A DNA stretch of 64,000 bases, from positions 1 through 64,000 of IMG/VR virus record IMGVR_UViG_3300025131_000017; one strand, given 5' to 3'. This document shows, piece by piece, positions 7,077 to 55,805 of this stretch. Both the position numbers and the translations under genes were made by a program. Origin of the DNA: a virus. The notes beneath the pieces were generated by a model. The model searched no databases. It was not told the origin of the DNA and saw only the letters and a program-made list of their open reading frames with translations. The first letter of the stretch is position 1; every line of letters begins with the position of its first letter.

Positions 7077-8079
7077 CGCTAACCTCCTCTTTTGGTTTGA
7101 ACTTTAATAGGGTTGGTTTTCCATATCCTAAATTGTGGGTTCTAATATTATCTTTACCTTGTGGCATAGTAAATCCTTCTGCTCGCATAATGGCTCCCAT
7201 TGAAGCATAACTTGGTTTAGATAGTTCTTCACGAAACTTACTATTCATAATTCTTAGATATGTCATTTCTTGTACCATATCATCCAATGTTTTTGTCATA
7301 TCACTAATAACAGATTGTTGTTTTATAATCTTTTTTCCTAAAGTTGTTTTAGAATTTTGATTTTTATTAGTTTCCACTTCTAAATCCGTTATCCACTTTC
7401 TTAATTTTGTTTCGAGTAGTTTTGCCTCTTCTAATTGAATTCCAAATTCCTTAGATTCAGTTTGCCAATAAACTAATTCATCTTTAATTTCTTTAGTTTC
7501 TTTTACTAGCTCTTTATTTATTCTACTCGTTTCGTTAGTAAAACTTTCAAATTCTTTTAACTTACCTCTCAATTCTTCAACTTCTGCTAAAATATCTTGT
7601 TTACCAATCGTAGCTCTATCTCTTTCTTGGAAAGCTATATCCATAGTAGAACCTTGAGTTTCAAGATTATTTTTTAACTGATTAATTTCAAGACTTTGTT
7701 TTTCTGCCCTCTTAGTCATTAAGTCTAGTTCATTAGATGTATTAGATAATTGACCATTAGTATCTTTATAGTCTTGCTCAAAATGTAAAAGTTTGGCATT
7801 TAAAGAATCAGCATATTCTAATTTAGCCTTAGAATCTTTTAATTTTTCTTCAATTGCAGAAATTTCATTCTTAGATAAGGTAAGGTTTTCTTCTAAGACA
7901 ATTTGTCTTTTAAGTGCCTCATCTTTTTCAACCTCTATGTTTTGATAAACAATAATTTTATTTTCTAACTCTTGAATTTGCTGTTGATATTCCTCCGCTG
8001 CCGAAAGATTTTCAACTATAATTTGAGGTTGTTTTCGATTATGCTTATTAGGTTTTTTGTTGAAATCACTAAGTTTCAT
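7066..8079 (-). CDS. Long coiled-coil protein
   Basis: About 337 residues from the ATG at 8079. A GTG at 8097 would add six residues, but the ATG lies just after GAG and beside the upstream stop. Most of the protein (roughly residues 40-280) is heptad-rich and charged, a long parallel coiled coil. It is followed by a short Gly/Pro-containing tail. No enzymatic motif is visible. Its place in front of the fibres suggests a fibre-shaft, spacer or assembly-chaperone role. This is inferred. Confidence 0.65.
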   Translation of the reverse strand: MKLSDFNKKPNKHNRKQPQIIVENLSAAEEYQQQIQELENKIIVYQNIEVEKDEALKRQIVLEENLTLSKNEISAIEEKLKDSKAKLEYADSLNAKLLHFEQDYKDTNGQLSNTSNELDLMTKRAEKQSLEINQLKNNLETQGSTMDIAFQERDRATIGKQDILAEVEELRGKLKEFESFTNETSRINKELVKETKEIKDELVYWQTESKEFGIQLEEAKLLETKLRKWITDLEVETNKNQNSKTTLGKKIIKQQSVISDMTKTLDDMVQEMTYLRIMNSKFREELSKPSYASMGAIMRAEGFTMPQGKDNIRTHNLGYGKPTLLKFKPKEEVSDGR

Positions 8080-8482
8080 AAATCTCTTGGGTCTCACTCG
8101 CTATAAATGGATTGCCAGAAAATTCTCTTGATTTCTTTAATCCTAAAATCCAACTTTGTGGTGTTTCGGCTTTTGAAATCATTTTAATACTACCAGATTT
8201 TTCTTCAATTCCTATATCTCCCTCAATAATCATTTCTATATGAGCTTCATGTTGAGGTGCGTGTGAATGTAACTCAAAAGTATTAGATGTAACATGATAA
8301 AATAAATCTGCTACATGAATATCTTTTTCAATTGGTTCTCGTTGAAAGTATATTGGTACAAGGTAAGAAACAACTTGTTTTTTAGGTTCTTCAACCTTTG
8401 TTATAGTTTCTTTCTTAGTTGCCGTGTTTATAACCTTTTTGGTTTTTGCTTTTTTTGCTACTTGTTTTTTTTCTTGAGTCAT
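8069..8482 (-). CDS. Small protein with basic N-terminus, 137 aa
   Basis: The start at 8482 is supported by GGAGGGG 7-8 nt upstream. The first 25-30 residues are Lys-rich (KKQVAKKAKTKK) and the remainder is a compact beta-rich domain of about 100 residues. It overlaps both neighbours (68 nt upstream, 11 nt downstream), as is usual in this compact operon. The family is not recognised; a virion or assembly role is inferred from position. Confidence 0.6.
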   Translation of the reverse strand: MTQEKKQVAKKAKTKKVINTATKKETITKVEEPKKQVVSYLVPIYFQREPIEKDIHVADLFYHVTSNTFELHSHAPQHEAHIEMIIEGDIGIEEKSGSIKMISKAETPQSWILGLKKSREFSGNPFIASETQEIYET

Positions 8483-9332
8483 GGGTAATCCCCTCCTTCT
8501 TTCTTGATGTTGCTAAATCTGTTTCACCTTTATATTTTCTTCCAGCCCCCTCTCCTCTAATTCTTCCTTTTCCATGTCCACTTACAGAACGTTCATGAGC
8601 TCCTGTTCCTGTACCCCTAATTCTCTTTTTACCCCCACGAGCATTATAAGTGTCTCCAACATTTTCTGGTTTTACCCATCTATGTGCTGTTGGGTCAAAT
8701 CTTGCCCCTTGAAAGGGAGGCATACTAAGAACTTTAAGGATGTCTATATCGTCTGCTTTTACAGCATTTGTGACAGGAGTCTTTCGTACATAAGTATCTG
8801 AACTATCAGAACTATTTTTGAAGAAAGTCTTCATTTTTTCTATGGCAGATTCTTTTCTCATTCGTCCACCTTTTTTTCTCATTGCTTGTTGAATTTGTCT
8901 TTCAAATTCTCTTTGTTGTGCTGGAGTAGGTTGTCCTGAACCACGAGTAATATTGTCGCTTAACCACCATCCAGCCAATGCTGCTGCGGCAGGTGAAACT
9001 CTTTTTTCAATCTTCTCGTCTTCGTCTTCTTCATCATCAGTTGTTTTTCCATCATAAAGAGGATAACTTTTAAACAAATCATCAAAGTCTTGTGGGTCAT
9101 CCATACTTTTATTATAAGGATTGTTTTCCATACCAGCCACTAATTTACCCGCTAAAGCCCGTTTTTCTTCACCAGTTTTTGCAGCCTTAATATCATCCAT
9201 ATGCAATTCTCTTACAGCATCAAAGTGTTTTCCTTTTCCACTTCCACTTATCAATGCCCATGCTACTGCCCAAGGATTCTGAATTTTTTGTGCCTTGTAT
9301 AACTCTTTAATTTTGTTTAAATTATTTGACAT
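8415..9332 (-). CDS. Uncharacterised virion-module protein, 305 aa
   Basis: The N-terminal about 90 residues form a helical domain with WAVAWALISGSGKGKHFDAV and YNKSMDDPQDFDDLF. A short hydrophobic segment (AAAALAGWWLSD) follows near residue 115. A basic Gly/Arg/Lys-rich C-terminus with GKGRIRGEGAGRKYKGET could bind nucleic acid. The short helical N-terminus resembles small domains at the ends of phage head-associated proteins, but I cannot name the family. A late-promoter-like site lies at 9350-9358 just upstream. Confidence 0.55.
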   Translation of the reverse strand: MSNNLNKIKELYKAQKIQNPWAVAWALISGSGKGKHFDAVRELHMDDIKAAKTGEEKRALAGKLVAGMENNPYNKSMDDPQDFDDLFKSYPLYDGKTTDDEEDEDEKIEKRVSPAAAALAGWWLSDNITRGSGQPTPAQQREFERQIQQAMRKKGGRMRKESAIEKMKTFFKNSSDSSDTYVRKTPVTNAVKADDIDILKVLSMPPFQGARFDPTAHRWVKPENVGDTYNARGGKKRIRGTGTGAHERSVSGHGKGRIRGEGAGRKYKGETDLATSRKKEGITHDSRKKTSSKKSKNQKGYKHGN

Positions 9333-13855: not shown

Positions 13856-16800
13856 TTATTCAGTTTTATAAAAATCCTCTAACTCCTTAAATTGTTTATC
13901 AATTCTTGCTCTTTCCTCCTTAGATTCCTTTATTCTGCCACTAGCAGAAGGTTCATCTAGGAAAATGTCAATTCCATAATCTTCGTCATTATCTGACGCT
14001 TTCAATAAAGAAGTGGAGTTTTGAATCTCCTCTAAACTATTATACTTAACTCCATGATTTTTTGTGACCCATTTTAAGGCATTATCTCTTCGTCTTTTTA
14101 AAGTCTCAATCATATGAGATTTACTTCGTGCAGAAATTCGTGAATCTATAACTAAATCTTCTATTACAGAATCCTTCATCTGAATTAATTTATCAGTAGC
14201 GGTTTGCCATTTATCTTTCATTCCGTCTCCACCACCGAAAACATGTGCGGTTGTGGGGTTAACATTTTCATCCAAGAATTTATCTAACTCTGGCAAGTAA
14301 TCCTGTTTCCAATCGTGGAAGTTGTCCTTTTTTCCACTTAAACCCTTGTGTTCTAATGCACCACCTTGGTCGAGTCTATAAAATTTACCTTCGTGTTCTA
14401 ATATGTTTCCATAAGGTTTTTCACTTCCTGCCCCAATAACATCATGATTGGCTAATACAGCATCAACTAAGAAACCATCCTTTATATCAGGTTGGTCTTG
14501 TAGTGCTTCAGTACCTTGATGGTATTTACCACCTGATAACCATTTTGATTTTAAAGCAGTTTTGTCTTTCCATGTAACAAGTTCTGTTTCAGGAACATTA
14601 AAACCTAATTTCTTATAAAATTGGTTTGCTAATTGTTCTGAAGCATGTTTGTCTTCATGGTCGTTCTTAACATAAAAATTATTTCCTTGTGAATCTTTGT
14701 ATGTTCCACCGGGATTTGTTCCTAACTTTCCAGCAGGAACTTCATCACTAGTAGTTATAGGAGTTAATGTTTCATGATAATCTTGTGATGGATTCGTAAG
14801 TCCTTTAGCCAGAATATCACCAAAAATATTTGTGGGAAATAATCCATTAGTGTCAGGACCTTTTGTCCAATCTCCCTTATAGGTTTTTGCTTTATCAAAA
14901 TATTTAGATTCATAATTACCATCATAAATAAGTCTAGATTCTGAGTCGGGGTTATTTAAAACTACTAATTCCCCTTCGTGATGGTGATTATTTCCTGCTT
15001 TTGCTGCTGCATCTCCATAAAGAGCTGGGTGCATAACTATATCTCTTTTATTTAATTTTCTTACAACACCATAGGCACCATTCCATTTCCTTGGGTCAAC
15101 TGTATAACCAGAAAGAGGTGCAGAGTGAGGATTAACTTTTACTCCTTCACCTGTCTTCTCTGCCTTGTCTATCAGTTTGTCAAGGGCTTCTTCTGTCATA
15201 GGTGTCCCGTGAGAACCAAAATCTCCAGTAACTTCTCTAACTGAATCCATTTTTCTTATGGCATAAAAATGACTTGTGTCTGGATAAACTTCATTCAAAA
15301 CACTATTAGTTAGTTTCTGAGCATGTTCTAAATATGTTTGGCAGAATTTTTCTCCTGTTTTAATTTTTGATAACAACTCTCCGTTTTCATCTTGAAAGGT
15401 TTTCTTTTGTTCATCAGGCATCTTATCGTAATCTTTGTGAATACGGTCACCTATATCTTGATAGTTATTTTCTGCATGGTCAGTAGCTAGTTTCTTGTTA
15501 CCTTCATTGGACACTTCCATTTTTACTGATATCGAATCTCTCATATGTCTAAATTTCCATGCATCTTTAACTGTTGCTTCACCACCTTTTTTGTCAGGAA
15601 CTTTAAAAGAAACTTTATTTTCAAAATCAATAATTTCTCCATCAGACAATTTAATATGGTAGGGAGGGTTTGTACCATCACCCTCTATTTTGTCTAGCCC
15701 TTCAGTTTTAAATTTCTGGTAGGCTTCAACATACGCTTTTTTATCTTCATAACTTCTATAACAATTTTTACCAGAATTATCTACTGATGCTGGAGTAACT
15801 TCTGAAAAATTAAAAGTATTAGGTATATTAAACATCTTACCGGCTTGTTCATTTAAAAGATTGGGTTCTGCCCGAAATTTAAGGGCATCTGCCTTCCACC
15901 CGGTGAGGAATTGGGAGTGGAGGTCACTAAATTCTTTTGTACCATATTTCTTATCTAACAGATTCATGTAATCAGACGACATTGAATTGACAGTTGAGTC
16001 AGCTTTAAAATCAGAAGGGTGAATTATTGCCCACTCTAATGCTTCAAAAGCAACTGAATACTTAGGGTTTGTAGAAAAATCGTCTGGAAATTCTCCATGT
16101 TCAGACAAATGTTCTAACATTGAATTAAAAACCTCCTTTTTATCTAGTTTAATTGTTTTAGCGTTTTCAGACACTTGTGCCAAAGTACTAGAAGTTTTAT
16201 TATTGTTGTTATGTTCATTAATTCCTGCAGCAATCGCATCCTTATCCCTTCTGGCAGCATCATTGTCTAACTTATCTAAAGTCTTATATGCTTCGTCTGC
16301 AGACATCCATTTAACATCTGAAGTTTCATCTCCAAGGTCTTTTGATGTTGATTCTACTTCCATAACATAATATTTGTGGTCATTTTTTCCAGACTGATAA
16401 TGTCCGGGGATTTCTGCGGTAACCTTACACTTCATCCCTGTTTCTTCTTCAACTTCACGAAGTGCTGCTTGTTCAGGGGTTTCTCCTTCATTTGCCCCAC
16501 CTTTAGCAAGTGTCCATCTATTTCCATAAGCCTCACTACTAGGTTGTCTCATAAGAACACTCCCGTTTTTGGGGTCAATGATTACACCTCCAAATCTAAT
16601 CGATTCATCATCACCTTGTCTACCATGATGTTTTTCATAGATAGAACTATATTTTCGTTGAATAAGTTTTTTATCAACATATTTCCCCTTTTGCTCTCCA
16701 ACATAAACATGTAATTTTAAATCTTGTGGTGTTGAATCTGTGTTAGGAATTTTACCATCTGGAGTTAAATATAATCGTTGCTCTGATGGAAGTTGGTCTA

Positions 16801-16966
16801 ACCCTCCGGGTGCTTGTGGAGTTGCAGAAGGCATACCTGATAATTTACCTTGTTGAGCAGCAAATGGAAGACTACCATCTATTTCAGCTTTGTAAAACTT
16901 TTCTTCTTTGGTATTTTCTTCTTTAGTTAAATCTATCAATCTTTTAATTAATTTATTAGTAGTCAT
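13856..16966 (-). CDS. Multidomain virion-module protein: Nudix, ADP-ribosyltransferase-like and kinase-like domains
   Basis: This is a 1036-residue protein. Residues 120-230 are a Nudix hydrolase: the Nudix box runs from G156 to M178 with E162, R170-E171 and E174-E175 in place. Residues 560-680 resemble an R-S-E class ADP-ribosyltransferase: R571 in FYAIRKM, S619-G-Y-T in LSGYTVDP, and E664-x-E666 in HHHEGELVVL. Residues 754-880 resemble a kinase or HipA/PI-kinase-like fold: FYVKND Lys, LANHDVIG, and RLDQGGAL at 863-870. The Nudix assignment is firm, the other two are inference. Encoded among tail genes, it could be a virion-delivered NAD-using modifier, by analogy with T4 Alt. A helical C-terminal region follows. 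Confidence 0.7.
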   Translation of the reverse strand: MTTNKLIKRLIDLTKEENTKEEKFYKAEIDGSLPFAAQQGKLSGMPSATPQAPGGLDQLPSEQRLYLTPDGKIPNTDSTPQDLKLHVYVGEQKGKYVDKKLIQRKYSSIYEKHHGRQGDDESIRFGGVIIDPKNGSVLMRQPSSEAYGNRWTLAKGGANEGETPEQAALREVEEETGMKCKVTAEIPGHYQSGKNDHKYYVMEVESTSKDLGDETSDVKWMSADEAYKTLDKLDNDAARRDKDAIAAGINEHNNNNKTSSTLAQVSENAKTIKLDKKEVFNSMLEHLSEHGEFPDDFSTNPKYSVAFEALEWAIIHPSDFKADSTVNSMSSDYMNLLDKKYGTKEFSDLHSQFLTGWKADALKFRAEPNLLNEQAGKMFNIPNTFNFSEVTPASVDNSGKNCYRSYEDKKAYVEAYQKFKTEGLDKIEGDGTNPPYHIKLSDGEIIDFENKVSFKVPDKKGGEATVKDAWKFRHMRDSISVKMEVSNEGNKKLATDHAENNYQDIGDRIHKDYDKMPDEQKKTFQDENGELLSKIKTGEKFCQTYLEHAQKLTNSVLNEVYPDTSHFYAIRKMDSVREVTGDFGSHGTPMTEEALDKLIDKAEKTGEGVKVNPHSAPLSGYTVDPRKWNGAYGVVRKLNKRDIVMHPALYGDAAAKAGNNHHHEGELVVLNNPDSESRLIYDGNYESKYFDKAKTYKGDWTKGPDTNGLFPTNIFGDILAKGLTNPSQDYHETLTPITTSDEVPAGKLGTNPGGTYKDSQGNNFYVKNDHEDKHASEQLANQFYKKLGFNVPETELVTWKDKTALKSKWLSGGKYHQGTEALQDQPDIKDGFLVDAVLANHDVIGAGSEKPYGNILEHEGKFYRLDQGGALEHKGLSGKKDNFHDWKQDYLPELDKFLDENVNPTTAHVFGGGDGMKDKWQTATDKLIQMKDSVIEDLVIDSRISARSKSHMIETLKRRRDNALKWVTKNHGVKYNSLEEIQNSTSLLKASDNDEDYGIDIFLDEPSASGRIKESKEERARIDKQFKELEDFYKTE

Positions 16967-21085: not shown

Positions 21086-21103
21086 ACTATCACTACAAAT
21101 AGA
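21083..21103 (+). repeat. Direct repeat copy 2
   Basis: TAAACTATCACTACAAATAG at the stop codon of the previous gene. Matches the copy at 20621-20641 apart from one internal base and the end. Confidence 0.7.
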
Positions 21104-21181
21104 CCCATAAGTATATATAGGAATATAATGACGAATATAAACATTTTAATTTCAGAACTCATATATAAATTATACCAGTTG

Positions 21182-22363
21182 TTATAATACTAACATTCGT
21201 TCTAAGGCGATTTTTGAGTAAAGTTGTACTGAATCATCGACTTTTATTTGATTTATAACAATTCCAGCTATTAATCCCTCTAAAACCCATAGTAAATATG
21301 CTGGGTGAACCCTATACATAGTAGCACAAGGACAAATCATCTCATCCAAACAAAAAATATTTTTCTCCGGGTAAGTATGTGCTAACCTCTTAACCAAATT
21401 TATTTCAGTACCTATAGCCCAACTAGAACCATTAGGAGCATTATGAACCATGTCTTTTATATATTCTGTACTTCCAACATAATCAGATATACTAACAACT
21501 TCATTTGTACATTCTGGGTGAACAAGGATATTAACTTCTGAATTTTTTGTTCTAGCCTCGTTAATTTGATTAACAGAAAATCTAGTATGAACGGAACAAT
21601 GTCCTTTCCAAAGAATCATTTTAGCTTTATCTAAATCATAGTCAGAGATACCACCACCTACCTTATAAGGGTCCCAAATAACCATCTCATCTTCTGGTAT
21701 ACCATACTTAAGAGCAGTATTCCTCCCTAAGTGCTGGTCTGGTATAAACAGAACCTTCTCTCCTTGGTCGAACGCCCAAGATAGAGCATGACCAGCATTA
21801 CTTGAAGTACATACTAAACCATTATTTTGACCACAAAGAGATTTTATTTCTGCCGTAGAATTCATATAAGTAAGGGGAGTAATAGGTACCTTTAACTTTT
21901 TAGTTAGATAATCCCAACAGTCTTCAACTTGCTCTGTACTAGCCATATCTGCCATAGAACAACCCGCTGCCATATTAGGTAATATTACTCGTTGATTAGA
22001 ACTACTTAGTATCTCCGCAGTCTCTGCCATGAAGTGTACTCCACAAAATATTATTATTTCGGCATCTTGCTCACTTGCTAACTTAGCTAACTTATAACTA
22101 TCTCCCTGTAAATCAGAATGCTTTATAACATCCTCCCTTTGGTAATGATGCCCTAAGACTACAACCTTATCCCCTAAGACAGCCCTAGCCTTCTTTATAG
22201 CCCCATTTAATTCATCCATAGGTATCCTTAAGTACCTAGATGGTATCTTCTGCCATCTTACACCAGATTGAAACTCTTCTCCTAGTGTCTTAGTCCGAAA
22301 ATTATCCTCTGTAGTACAGAATGAACTTTGTTCTAATTCAGTTATCGGTATATTTAATGTCAT
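21182..22363 (-). CDS. nadA: Quinolinate synthase NadA
   Basis: NadA makes quinolinate from iminoaspartate and dihydroxyacetone phosphate, using a [4Fe-4S] cluster, in de novo NAD synthesis. All signature blocks are present: HHYQ at about residues 72-75, FMAETA, C135 in LPNMAAGCSMADM, C185 in CTSSNA, IPDQHLGRN, HPEC and a C-terminal CPCATMYR (C344/C346). The three cluster Cys positions are retained, so the enzyme looks intact at 393 residues. I start it at the ATG 22363. A possible TTG start upstream overlaps the promoter. nadB and nadC are absent here, so the host must supply iminoaspartate and downstream steps. It is transcribed alone, converging on the plus-strand operon. Confidence 0.95.
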   Translation of the reverse strand: MTLNIPITELEQSSFCTTEDNFRTKTLGEEFQSGVRWQKIPSRYLRIPMDELNGAIKKARAVLGDKVVVLGHHYQREDVIKHSDLQGDSYKLAKLASEQDAEIIIFCGVHFMAETAEILSSSNQRVILPNMAAGCSMADMASTEQVEDCWDYLTKKLKVPITPLTYMNSTAEIKSLCGQNNGLVCTSSNAGHALSWAFDQGEKVLFIPDQHLGRNTALKYGIPEDEMVIWDPYKVGGGISDYDLDKAKMILWKGHCSVHTRFSVNQINEARTKNSEVNILVHPECTNEVVSISDYVGSTEYIKDMVHNAPNGSSWAIGTEINLVKRLAHTYPEKNIFCLDEMICPCATMYRVHPAYLLWVLEGLIAGIVINQIKVDDSVQLYSKIALERMLVL

Positions 22364-22373
22364 CTTACTATAA

Positions 22374-22402
22374 ATTATACACCAATAACCCAACTATTTC
22401 AA
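22374..22402 (-). promoter_or_regulatory. nadA promoter
   Basis: Minus strand: TTGAAA (complement 22397-22402), 17-bp spacer, perfect TATAAT (complement 22374-22379). The expected start site lies at about 22366, only a few bases before the ATG at 22363. The mRNA would therefore be leaderless or nearly so. Confidence 0.65.
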
Positions 22403-22516
22403 ATTTTTTATTTTTTTTTAATGTATACACTTTTAAGGTTTTTATGACGTTTTTAAATATTAGCCAAAAGATGTCACAAATAAGGCTTTTTGTTAACACT
22501 TTATGATATACTAGTA

Positions 22517-22560
22517 AGGTAATTACATTTGTAATTACTTAAACAACATTTGTTTAATTA
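22517..22560. repeat. Two tandem perfect inverted repeats
   Basis: GTAATTAC-ATTT-GTAATTAC followed by TTAAACAA-CAT-TTGTTTAA, two 8-bp-arm palindromes a few bases apart. They could be twin operators, or hairpins at the start of an RNA. Confidence 0.7.
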
Positions 22561-22563
22561 TAG

Positions 22564-22609
22564 CTGTCCTAGTGTTTGAAGTTTCTATGCCTCATTCATT
22601 AGGGCAGTT
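22564..22609 (+). other. Potential long hairpin
   Basis: CTGTCCTA and TAGGGCAG pair over 8 bp (one G-U) around a loop of about 30 nt. With the adjacent inverted repeats this could be part of an RNA or a structured DNA element. No promoter-terminator pair clearly frames it. Confidence 0.35.
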
Positions 22610-22732
22610 GGTCTCTATACCTACCCACTTTACCCCAATTATATCTCTTTATATTTAGATATTTCAAATATTACTTTCTGTAGATAAGTAAGTACTCATG
22701 GCTAACTCCCCTGCAGGATTTTTTGCACAACC

Positions 22733-23658: not shown

Positions 23659-23689
23659 AATATTATAATAGTTAAATAAGGAGAACTAA

Positions 23690-41712: not shown

Positions 41713-43047
41713 TTATGAGTTTAGGTCAGCAATTTTTGCTTGAGTAAAGATGTTCTTACATCGCATCTCAGCCATAGTGTAGAGTAATCCTCTAACAACT
41801 AGTGCATTTGCTGCGAAGTAATCTCTGTTCTCTACATACTGAGTAGGTTGAGCAACAGCGATTTCAAGATAATCTGTATCCAAAACATAAACGTTTGAAC
41901 CTAGAACTGCATCAGCAGAAGAAACAGACTTTGGAACATCTGCATCTGGAAGAATTGGAATACCTTGATAGGTAGCCAATACTAGTCCAGTTCTTGTACC
42001 GGGGTAAGTTCTTTCAGCTCCTACACCCACTTGGTACTCTTCTTGACCTAGATACCTCTGGTTACTGTTAAGCAATCTTTCAAGGTTGAAGTATTGGTCG
42101 TGACCCAAAAGGATTAGTTTTGGTTCTCCACCATTCTCTCTTACTTTCTGAATTGCTGTATCAAGTAATGTCAATGACAATGCTCTACCTGTTCCTGAGT
42201 TATAAGAAACAGAAGCACCAGCGTTCCATGCACCAGCTGTTCTTCCAGCCAATGTTAGGTCATAAGCTCTTGTTCTTGCTACACCACCACCAACAGCAGC
42301 ACCATCTTCTGAAACGACATCGTCAATAGAAGTCATACCTGCTCTTGAATAAATGTAAGCAACATCACCATCAGCAAATGCAGTACCTGAAGCAACAGTT
42401 ACAGCACCTGTAGAGGTGTTTACTGCAGAAATAACTGAACCTGAAGTTCTGTCATGTGCAGTTCCTGAAACATCGTATTGAGCTACAGCATCACCAACTT
42501 TAAAGTGTTTGGCGTAAGCAGCTGGAACTGTGAACGATGTAGCACCACCAGCAGAAGCAATGGATGCTGAACCTGCTAATAGTTCTTCGTTAATTTCTTT
42601 GATGTGGTCTAATTGAGCATTTTCATTCTCTAGAGCCAAAACATCTCCGACACCACCTTCTAGCTGTGCAGTAAAGACTGACTTTACTGAAGCACCGAAT
42701 GTAGTTGAAACAATTCTAGGTAAACTAGAAACTGTTTGTATGTCGGAAACATCGACTGTAGGCAATGAGCCTGTCTCTGTTACCGGTCTAGAACGACCAG
42801 AACCTCTATCAGTCCTGACCCTCCAACCAGCAGTATTTCCCCAGACCACCCTTGGGATAGCATTAAAGAATCTGGTTTGGTTGTTTAGAGCCTGCCAGAC
42901 TTTTCTGCCGTATGTTGTATTGAATATTCCTGTACTAGAGTCTACAGTAAAATAAGATTGTTTCTGAAGGTATTCTGGACCGAATACAGACTGATACAAA
43001 CCTCTCTGCGACTGTGCAAGATATTCCGATAAACTTGGGTTAGCCAT
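41713..43047 (-). CDS. Major capsid protein
   Basis: A 444-residue protein with a long N-arm (MANPSLSEYLAQSQRG), a central beta-rich inserted region (about residues 150-240) and C-terminal ILPDADVPKS...YVLDTDYLEIA, as in HK97-fold capsids. Placed after the scaffold protein, 40 nt apart. The identification rests on operon position, size and pattern. AGGAG upstream of the ATG. Confidence 0.85.
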   Translation of the reverse strand: MANPSLSEYLAQSQRGLYQSVFGPEYLQKQSYFTVDSSTGIFNTTYGRKVWQALNNQTRFFNAIPRVVWGNTAGWRVRTDRGSGRSRPVTETGSLPTVDVSDIQTVSSLPRIVSTTFGASVKSVFTAQLEGGVGDVLALENENAQLDHIKEINEELLAGSASIASAGGATSFTVPAAYAKHFKVGDAVAQYDVSGTAHDRTSGSVISAVNTSTGAVTVASGTAFADGDVAYIYSRAGMTSIDDVVSEDGAAVGGGVARTRAYDLTLAGRTAGAWNAGASVSYNSGTGRALSLTLLDTAIQKVRENGGEPKLILLGHDQYFNLERLLNSNQRYLGQEEYQVGVGAERTYPGTRTGLVLATYQGIPILPDADVPKSVSSADAVLGSNVYVLDTDYLEIAVAQPTQYVENRDYFAANALVVRGLLYTMAEMRCKNIFTQAKIADLNS

Positions 43048-49489: not shown

Positions 49490-51418
49490 CTATGCAATTA
49501 TACATTTACTAGAACCACAATTTTTGCATGTTTCACATCCACCTTCATTTATAATGTGGGGAGAAGTACAACATAAGTCTTGATTTTTTAATATTTTTTC
49601 TTCAATAGAAAAACCATCCATAACTAATTGTTTATCTTCTTTAGCATTACCTTTAACTAAGACTTCCACTTCTCTTGACCCCGCTCTATAAACTGTAATT
49701 CCTTTACATCTTTTTTTCCATGCTAACATATATGCATTTTCAACATCTTCTATAGTAGCAGAGTTTGCAAAGTTAATTGTTTTTGAAATTCCTGAATCAC
49801 AATTCTCTTGGAAGGAAGCTTGCATTAATACATGAGCCTCTGGACTAATTGAAGGTGCAGTTCTATATACATCTTTCGCCCAATCTGGAACTTGAGGAAC
49901 AGTACTTAAGTCACCACCCTCTGCTAAGTAATCCATTAAATCTTCTGAATAAAAACCATATTCTTTAGCATCAGCCTCAAAATATTTGTTTACATAATTT
50001 AAAGTTTTACCTTCTAATATGTTTTGTTTCTTCCAAGCTAATGCAAATGTTGGTTCAACACCACTAGACGTATCAGCAATCATAGAAATAGTTCCTGTTG
50101 GTGCAACTGTTAATCTACAATGATTTCTAAATTTTTGATTGTCTACCTTATAGTAATCACTTTTTTCCCACGCAGGAAATGTTCCTCTTTCCATTGCAAG
50201 ATGTTTAGATTCAGAATCGGACCAAGTTTGTATATTTCCCATAATAAGTTTACCAATCTTTCTTGCTTCTTCAGAATCATATGGAATCTTTAATTGAATT
50301 AATAAGTCAGCAAACCCCATAACTCCCAAACCAATCTTTCGAGTTGCTTTTGTCATCTCTTCAATTTCAGGAGTTGCATAATAGTTTGCATCAATAACAT
50401 TATCTAAGAATCTAGTAGCCTTTCTAGTAACCCATTCTAATCTTGCCCAATCAATTTTCTTAAACCATTCACCATCAAAGTTATTCATATCTGATTCACT
50501 TCTATAAAATTTAGCAAGGTTAACTGAACCTAAGTTACAAGATTCATTTGGTAACAAAGGTTGTTCTCCACATGGATTTGTAGCAATCATGTGTCCATAT
50601 TCTTGGATAACATGGTTATCTTCATTTACTCTATCTAGAAATATCATTCCCGGTTCACCATTTCTCCACGCACCCTCAACAATTTTATTAAAAACCTCTC
50701 GTGCATTTACCTTTTTAACGAGTGATAAATCTTTAGGGTTGATTAAACCATACTCCATATTATTTTCAACTGCTTTCATAAAATTAGAATCAACCCCAAC
50801 TGAAATATTAAAATTATGTATATCTCCTTCAATGGATTTACATGATATAAACTCTAGTATATCTGGGTGATATATTGACATAACAGCCATATTGGCTCCA
50901 TCCCTCTTACCTCCTTGTGTTATCATAGAAGATACTCTTGATAACGTCTTTAGAACTTCAATAGGACCACAAGCTATACCATGTGTTGACCTTATTCTAT
51001 CTCCTCTTGGTCTAACATTAGATAAGGCAAACCCTGTACCCCCTCCGAATTTTTGAACCATCGCTGTGTCAGTAGCTGCTTTCATTATTCCTTCCATACT
51101 ATCTTCTAGTGGAAGCACAAAACATGCTGATAAAGTTCCTTGTTCTGTTCCTGCATTCATTAGTGTTGGAGAGTTTGGAATGAATTCTAACTTTGACATC
51201 ATTACAAAGAAATCATTTTCTTCTAAAGTAGCCTCAACAGGAAGTTTTCCATAATCTAATTCTATTTTTGCGATTGCTTTTGCAACTCTTCTAAATAGTC
51301 CATTAGGGTCTTCAATTACTTTATTATCCGAGTCTTTTAAAAAATATCTATGCTCTAAAATTACTTGGGCTTGGTCTGAAATTTGTGTTGTTTTACTTGA
51401 AAAATTGACTAACGTCAT
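49490..51418 (-). CDS. nrdJ: Class II (adenosylcobalamin) ribonucleotide reductase
   Basis: Blocks for RNR large subunit: FIPNSPTLMNAG, QKFGGGTGFALS, RDGANMAVM, NPCGEQPLLPNESCNLGS (catalytic NPCGE) and APTGTISMIADTSSGVEP. The C-terminus is CCTSPHI...CETCKNCGSSKC. These support a single-chain class II enzyme (642 residues, no nrdB seen). It reduces ribonucleotides using B12. It lies inside the packaging-head module, between terminase and portal, rather than with the replication genes. Confidence 0.9.
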   Translation of the reverse strand: MTLVNFSSKTTQISDQAQVILEHRYFLKDSDNKVIEDPNGLFRRVAKAIAKIELDYGKLPVEATLEENDFFVMMSKLEFIPNSPTLMNAGTEQGTLSACFVLPLEDSMEGIMKAATDTAMVQKFGGGTGFALSNVRPRGDRIRSTHGIACGPIEVLKTLSRVSSMITQGGKRDGANMAVMSIYHPDILEFISCKSIEGDIHNFNISVGVDSNFMKAVENNMEYGLINPKDLSLVKKVNAREVFNKIVEGAWRNGEPGMIFLDRVNEDNHVIQEYGHMIATNPCGEQPLLPNESCNLGSVNLAKFYRSESDMNNFDGEWFKKIDWARLEWVTRKATRFLDNVIDANYYATPEIEEMTKATRKIGLGVMGFADLLIQLKIPYDSEEARKIGKLIMGNIQTWSDSESKHLAMERGTFPAWEKSDYYKVDNQKFRNHCRLTVAPTGTISMIADTSSGVEPTFALAWKKQNILEGKTLNYVNKYFEADAKEYGFYSEDLMDYLAEGGDLSTVPQVPDWAKDVYRTAPSISPEAHVLMQASFQENCDSGISKTINFANSATIEDVENAYMLAWKKRCKGITVYRAGSREVEVLVKGNAKEDKQLVMDGFSIEEKILKNQDLCCTSPHIINEGGCETCKNCGSSKCIIA

Positions 51419-55097: not shown

Positions 55098-55805
55098 TTA
55101 CACCTTCACTAAAGAATTACTAATATGTGGTTCAATATAATTAATAATTTCCATCACTTTAGTTAAATCAAACTTACCATTTGAACGTATACCTGTCTCC
55201 ATGTCAATCCAATTAATAATTTTGTCTCTCTTATCCCACACTTCAACTGCCTGTGGTAAGGTATTAATGTTTAATCCCCCGGAGTAACCATATTTTCGGT
55301 CTCCAAAGTCTAACCAACTATTTTGGAAAATTCCAGCCCCACTAGAAAAATCTTGGAAAACTGCTATATTTGGCAAGTCAAGATTATACATAAAGTGATT
55401 TCCTTCATCAACTTGTAAGATAAACTCAATATGAGAGTTTCTTTTCATCTCATTAATAAACTCATCATTAATTTTATATTTTATTCCATGTGTATTTATT
55501 TGAGCTCTTGAAAAAATCTCAGGAATACTTTGTTCCTTCATAATTTGCTCTAATGATAATCCTTCAGTTACAAGTTGATATACCATTGGTTCACATAAAT
55601 GCATCGAAAGATTCATTGTAGGTAAAGTCTTTTTTATTTTTTCTAATTCTGATATCCAATTAAAATTAGGAAATCTACTAAACCCTTCCATTCCACTAGG
55701 GAATAGAATACCCCACTCTACCCAAGGGTAAGCCTCTGAAATCTTTGCTAATTCAACAGGATGAACTGAATTATCAGCTCCTGTAAATGTTACTCGTTCT
55801 ATCAT
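55098..55805 (-). CDS. TIM-barrel-type protein, PRAI-like
   Basis: VEWGILFPSGMEGFSRFPNFNWI, SMHLCEPMV, IAVFQDFSSGAGIFQNSW and KYGYSGGLN recall a beta/alpha barrel close to the phosphoribosylanthranilate isomerase fold. Seen in bacterial and phage proteins of unknown role. Enzymatic activity is not shown; one active-site-like Cys in HLC. One-base overlap with the next gene. Confidence 0.55.
   Translation of the reverse strand: MIERVTFTGADNSVHPVELAKISEAYPWVEWGILFPSGMEGFSRFPNFNWISELEKIKKTLPTMNLSMHLCEPMVYQLVTEGLSLEQIMKEQSIPEIFSRAQINTHGIKYKINDEFINEMKRNSHIEFILQVDEGNHFMYNLDLPNIAVFQDFSSGAGIFQNSWLDFGDRKYGYSGGLNINTLPQAVEVWDKRDKIINWIDMETGIRSNGKFDLTKVMEIINYIEPHISNSLVKV

Follow-up and report, generated by a model that had tools for sequence, protein, structure and literature searches.

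Phage-encoded enzymes that raise nicotinamide adenine dinucleotide (NAD) are already known from salvage, where Vibrio phage KVP40 is an example of NadV combined with NadM/NadR, while the NARP1 and NARP2 pathways use ADP-ribose or nicotinamide. Genes of the psbA type represent auxiliary metabolic genes that phages obtained from their hosts. Across 21,191 viral proteomes, NadV, NadM, and NadR were reported as the NAD-synthesis enzymes of phages (PMC9503650). Here, we study a gene for a de novo step, nadA (quinolinate synthase), on bases 1-64000 of the 81,555-bp tailed phage record IMGVR_UViG_3300025131_000017 of IMG/VR (G000); this 64,000-nucleotide stretch is referred to as the window. The de novo step on a phage is what is new. 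With a probability of roughly 0.72, we consider this nadA to be a repeatedly captured, host-matched metabolic gene, which would provide, in the course of infection, an oxygen-sensitive iron-sulfur (Fe-S) step in the de novo synthesis of NAD.

The gene in question is located as follows:

21182-22363, minus strand: nadA, intact quinolinate synthase of 393 amino acids, identified by TIGR00550, PF02445, model confidence, similarity to structure 4p3x, and cluster cysteines

A single uninterrupted open reading frame, starting from ATG, encodes NadA. The protein scores 304.4 bits against the NCBIfam profile TIGR00550 (cut-off 262.9) and 319.9 bits against the Pfam profile PF02445 (cut-off 27), and is thus above both cut-offs; against the narrower model NF006884 it reaches 537, below that model's own cut-off of 691. 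It is alignable to solved NadA structures with match strengths all far above chance, and this PDB alignment identifies C135, C256, and C346 as counterparts of the three cluster cysteines of the P. horikoshii-type NadA. All three are invariant across 31 homologues, as are the motifs GHxYQR, GDS, FCGVxFMAE, GCSMADMA, YxNS, HPEC, and GST around them, and an additional cysteine, C344, is invariant within the subfamily. The AlphaFold (AF2) model, with a predicted local distance difference test (pLDDT) value of 93.1, displays the three-domain NadA fold. Its top Foldseek match is T. maritima NadA (4p3x; target-normalised template modeling score 0.91), and 19 of the 19 PDB matches at E<=0.001 are NadA proteins. 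An alternative TTG start at 22393, 30 nt upstream of the ATG at 22363, would yield a version of 403 amino acids; the ATG is preferred because the TATAAT -10 box described below falls between the two. The original prediction, made from the window's letters, of a complete nadA with three cluster-type cysteines is therefore borne out by profiles, residues, and fold, and the reading frame represents a complete, intact quinolinate synthase that is apparently functional.

In an independent phage, G006, nadA occupies the matching place and has the same orientation, opposite in direction to the adjoining gene block. Its DNA is 76% identical to the window over 21096-22619, i.e., past both ends of the gene. 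Upstream of nadA, the following features were identified:

22374-22402, minus strand: likely nadA promoter, TTGAAA-17-TATAAT, 11 of 12 consensus matches, with near-identical hexamers before nadA in G006

22505-22619, minus strand: conserved non-coding element, candidate small RNA or regulatory site

22638-22667, minus strand: promoter-like site TTGAAA-18-TATAAT just upstream of the element, a consensus match only

Promoter-like sites occur in this region at no more than chance number, and hence it is the conservation in G006 that serves as evidence for the promoter. Thus, nadA is predicted to have its own conserved promoter, which ends about 10 nt before the ATG, so that a nearly leaderless mRNA is to be expected. 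In the comparison of the two phage sequences available, the element lies in a 117-bp stretch with 93% identity to G006, as against approximately 76% for the nadA region overall. It contains two hairpins and is predicted to fold more stably than shuffled controls (z = -2.7). G006 has a duplication of 67 bp of the element region, placed directly upstream of it. The element gave no notable match in Rfam and no known riboswitch family of Rfam matched upstream of nadA; likewise, nothing similar occurs in the annotated phage collection. Its exact 23-mer core was recovered from one IMG/VR contig only, besides the window.

Apart from the window and G006, intact nadA genes were identified in ten further IMG/VR contigs, namely G001/G002, G003/G004, G005, G007, G008, and the jumbo-phage contigs G009-G011, and one more, incomplete copy lies at the end of another contig. 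The copies of G001 and G002 (L003/L004) are equally identical to the query, and the NadA proteins of G003 and G004 share 98.5% identity. The neighbors of nadA vary: a cytosine methyltransferase and a GroES gene flank it in G001-G004, structural genes surround it in G005, and in G007/G008 it follows a small conserved early gene. Hence, nadA sits at different sites in these phages.

In a maximum-likelihood tree of 67 proteins, the window copy and L009 group with three small, low-GC genomes of SAR202, a major, largely uncultured deep-ocean group (support 100/100). L003, L005, and L006 group with another SAR202 trio (support 100/95), L007, L010, and L011 branch near the SAR202 base, and the jumbo-phage copies fall outside SAR202 beside a metagenome-assembled genome (MAG) of Acidobacteriota. 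At least four switches between phages and cells are required by the tree. A single shared ancestral phage nadA, with the eight SAR202-type phage copies as one clade, was rejected by the approximately unbiased (AU) test (p=1.4e-6), while a single capture for the window and L009 was not (p=0.46). Judged by this topology, related as well as unrelated phages captured nadA several separate times, the three jumbo-phage contigs represent an independent fourth origin, and the donor of the window copy belongs to the SAR202 group (Chloroflexota). Among phage-phage pairs, ratios of nonsynonymous to synonymous substitution (dN/dS) or polymorphism (pN/pS) range from 0.07 to 0.19; for the window and L009, synonymous divergence (dS) is 0.94 at a dN/dS of 0.19. 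Such ratios indicate that NadA was kept functional in the phages. Purifying selection and promoter conservation are the only proxies for use in infection.

Going by gene origin only, the host of the phage is probably a SAR202 bacterium as well. Matches to the window NadA occur in 127 of the 147 genomes of the SAR202 order. The nearest cellular relative is found in a 0.9-Mb marine MAG (PAOY01000033.1) with the gene order miaB-nadA-nadC; host relatives share this order, some with an additional nadX, and NadX is found in the clades with larger genomes. G056, G093, and G163, the genomes closest to the window copy, are small, low-GC members of the order that encode nadA and nadC. The NAPRTase/NAMPT family is missing from all six SAR202 genomes nearest the phage copies (these three, G057, G177, and G150), while 17 of 41 other members of the order have it. 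This contrast, drawn from incomplete MAGs and suggestive only, would account for the presence of a de novo enzyme, instead of NadV, in these phages.

In profile searches that included the whole 81,555-bp record, no nadB, nadX, or nadC was found in any phage record, which also answers the check for nadB/nadC proposed with the original prediction: neither gene is present elsewhere in this phage genome. Nor does the whole record contain NadV/PncB, and neither G000 nor the SAR202-type phage contigs contain a phosphoribosyltransferase of NAMPT/NadV type, by which a salvage or NARP2 system would be recognized. Given this lack of nadC, nadB, and nadX on the phages, quinolinate would have to feed the host NadC.

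Both oxygen and the delivery of Fe-S clusters limit the activity of NadA (PMC8896826). According to the host-matched reading, NadA would be expressed by the phage during infection and its cluster loaded by the host Fe-S machinery. The enzyme would then convert host-made iminoaspartate and dihydroxyacetone phosphate to quinolinate, which host NadC would turn into nicotinate mononucleotide, on the way to NAD. Extra copies of the oxygen-labile step may in this way keep up NAD while the phage makes DNA and virions. Companion genes in other phages touch on the same supply:

L268 3882-6611 and L269 1383-4231: NAMPT-type phosphoribosyltransferase and companion genes on jumbo-phage nadA contigs, with phosphoribosyl pyrophosphate (PRPP) synthetase in G009 and a NadM-like protein in G011

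Jumbo-phage contig G009, which has a T4-type gp23 capsid gene, combines nadA with a NAPRTase/NAMPT-type enzyme and PRPP synthetase, and G011 combines it with NAMPT and a NadM-like Nudix/adenylyltransferase protein. In G005, genes for TusA-like, SufT/DUF59-like, and ThyX proteins directly precede nadA (L007 5651-6871). Fe-S assembly genes are unusual on a phage. The jumbo-phage salvage companions, the Fe-S genes of G005, and the oxygen and Fe-S limits of NadA together suggest a role in the supply of NAD in which the Fe-S step would be the bottleneck. That NAD may be limiting during infection, as originally suggested, is an inference strengthened by repeated independent acquisition, purifying selection, and the NAD-salvage companions in jumbo phages.

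Several observations weigh against this reading. Neither nadB nor nadX, which would account for the iminoaspartate, was recognized in the three host genomes that are closest to the window copy (L263-L266); the best matches to the nadB profile were SdhA proteins (TIGR01812, 725-729 bits), where checked. A direct host link by prophage, CRISPR, or co-binning was not found, and the phage capsid gene was found in none of the 147 genomes of the presumed host order, a search that had no positive control and shows little. Finally, only 2 of 46 contigs bearing a related capsid gene carry nadA, which suggests that the gene is optional; since many of these contigs are fragments, the proportion is a lower bound.

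A different purpose, possible but in our estimation rather unlikely, is counter-defence: NadA might restore NAD after NAD-cleaving host defences (TIR, SIR2, and similar) have fired, as a de novo equivalent of NARP1, NARP2, or NadV/NadM salvage that would suit hosts without nicotinamide salvage. It is established that phages replenish NAD when host defences deplete it (PMC12774641, PMC13232231). A phage would gain little from salvage enzymes in hosts such as the six SAR202 genomes without NAPRTase/NAMPT, and jumbo phages pair nadA with NadV-type genes. However, de novo synthesis might not keep pace with an acute collapse of NAD, and the contrast of 0/6 to 17/41 is a weak one. We regard as doubtful a broader proposal, in which phages fit their NAD gene to the NAD economy of the host: they would carry nadA where nicotinamide/nicotinate salvage is absent, and nadA on top of NadV/NadM in jumbo phages, in order to withstand immune NAD depletion, and the conserved RNA-like element upstream may regulate nadA. 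It is improbable that nadA is a passenger, i.e., a captured host gene neutral to the phage. Its rarity among the capsid-bearing contigs and its variable positions would fit, yet at least four switches between phage and cell, a long residence in phages under selection (window and L009), and the conserved promoter argue otherwise.

The window as a whole is phage-like. The genes flanking nadA are phage-type or unknown, and to its right an SU10-type major capsid protein, portal, prohead protease, and large terminase are encoded, as well as NrdJ, DNA polymerase A, RecA/UvsX, DnaB, primase, and dCMP deaminase. Two of these genes are located as follows:

41713-43047, minus strand: major capsid protein, 79.6 bits against NF033394 (capsid_maj_Podo), just below the cut-off of 80, with the SU10_MCP family among the members of A3

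49490-51418, minus strand: adenosylcobalamin-dependent ribonucleotide reductase NrdJ, 674 bits against TIGR02504 (cut-off 400)

Together with G006, these tailed-phage genes confirm that nadA is phage-borne. A second contig, G012, is 99.99% identical over 23678-81555. An artefact, in which assembly or binning joined host DNA to the phage contig and which the original prediction had named among its refutations, would agree with the start of G012 at 23678, short of nadA, but is rejected as very improbable, given that G006 shares the position of the gene, its promoter, and homologous DNA beyond both gene ends, that the host neighbors miaB and nadC are not present beside the window copy, and that its closest cellular match is only 72% identical. 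In the terms used for auxiliary metabolic genes, nadA is a metabolic gene of host origin that resides in a genuine phage genome.

At least 392 viral stretches in IMG/VR are related to the capsid gene, and thus the phage group is widespread. At 13856-16966 (minus strand), the window encodes a probable structural protein of 1036 amino acids, in which residues ~127-246 form an internal Nudix domain; it may be a hydrolase related to NAD/ADP-ribose that is carried in the virion. Another protein, conserved among phages, is encoded at 55098-55805 (minus strand) and in L003 at 7932-8684. In L003, where its gene lies two genes upstream of nadA, this protein has a match to phosphoribosylanthranilate isomerase (PF00697, 8e-7).

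The claim that nadA is unusual in a phage was upheld. No PHROGs family and no BFVD structure matches the window NadA, and a literature search, outside of which lay supplementary tables and subscription papers, did not find nadA as a viral gene. Two INPHARED matches were inspected, MT835574.1 and Listeria phage LM 4-14-1 (two Acinetobacter and two further fecal matches were left out), and both look host-chromosomal. As precedents they were rejected as apparently mislabelled host DNA: the former shows ABC-transporter and other chromosomal genes around nadA, the latter a chromosomal nadB-nadC-nadA order with ileS and divIVA (names read from translations). MT835574.1 (L008) and OR848117.1 (L283) are both filed as phage with a nadA region resembling a bacterial chromosome.

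On this reading, phages would control the NAD of their hosts through new synthesis as well as recycling, by means of an oxygen-sensitive, Fe-S-dependent enzyme. Several independent captures from SAR202 would identify NAD as a point at which infection repeatedly comes under pressure, and nadA may serve as a marker tying otherwise hostless phages to SAR202 clades. Compared with cellular NadA of the SAR202 order (e.g., PAOY01000033.1 and G093), the window protein has 70-72% identity, the same N-terminal ELEQxxFC extension, and all active-site and cluster residues. In contrast to the cellular gene, situated in miaB-nadA-nadC, the phage gene stands alone with its predicted own promoter and without nadC. 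With psbA-type auxiliary metabolic genes it shares the host-derived, host-matched character and repeated capture; those genes serve photosynthesis or nucleotide supply, whereas NadA would serve coenzyme synthesis by an oxygen-labile Fe-S enzyme. A possible NAD-restoring role is common to NARP1/NARP2, which differ in their substrates, ADP-ribose or nicotinamide, and in the NAMPT-type enzyme. Phage NAD salvage by NadV with NadM/NadR is alike in that a phage-encoded enzyme raises NAD, but it starts from nicotinamide, while NadA uses aspartate and triose and needs the NadC of the host.
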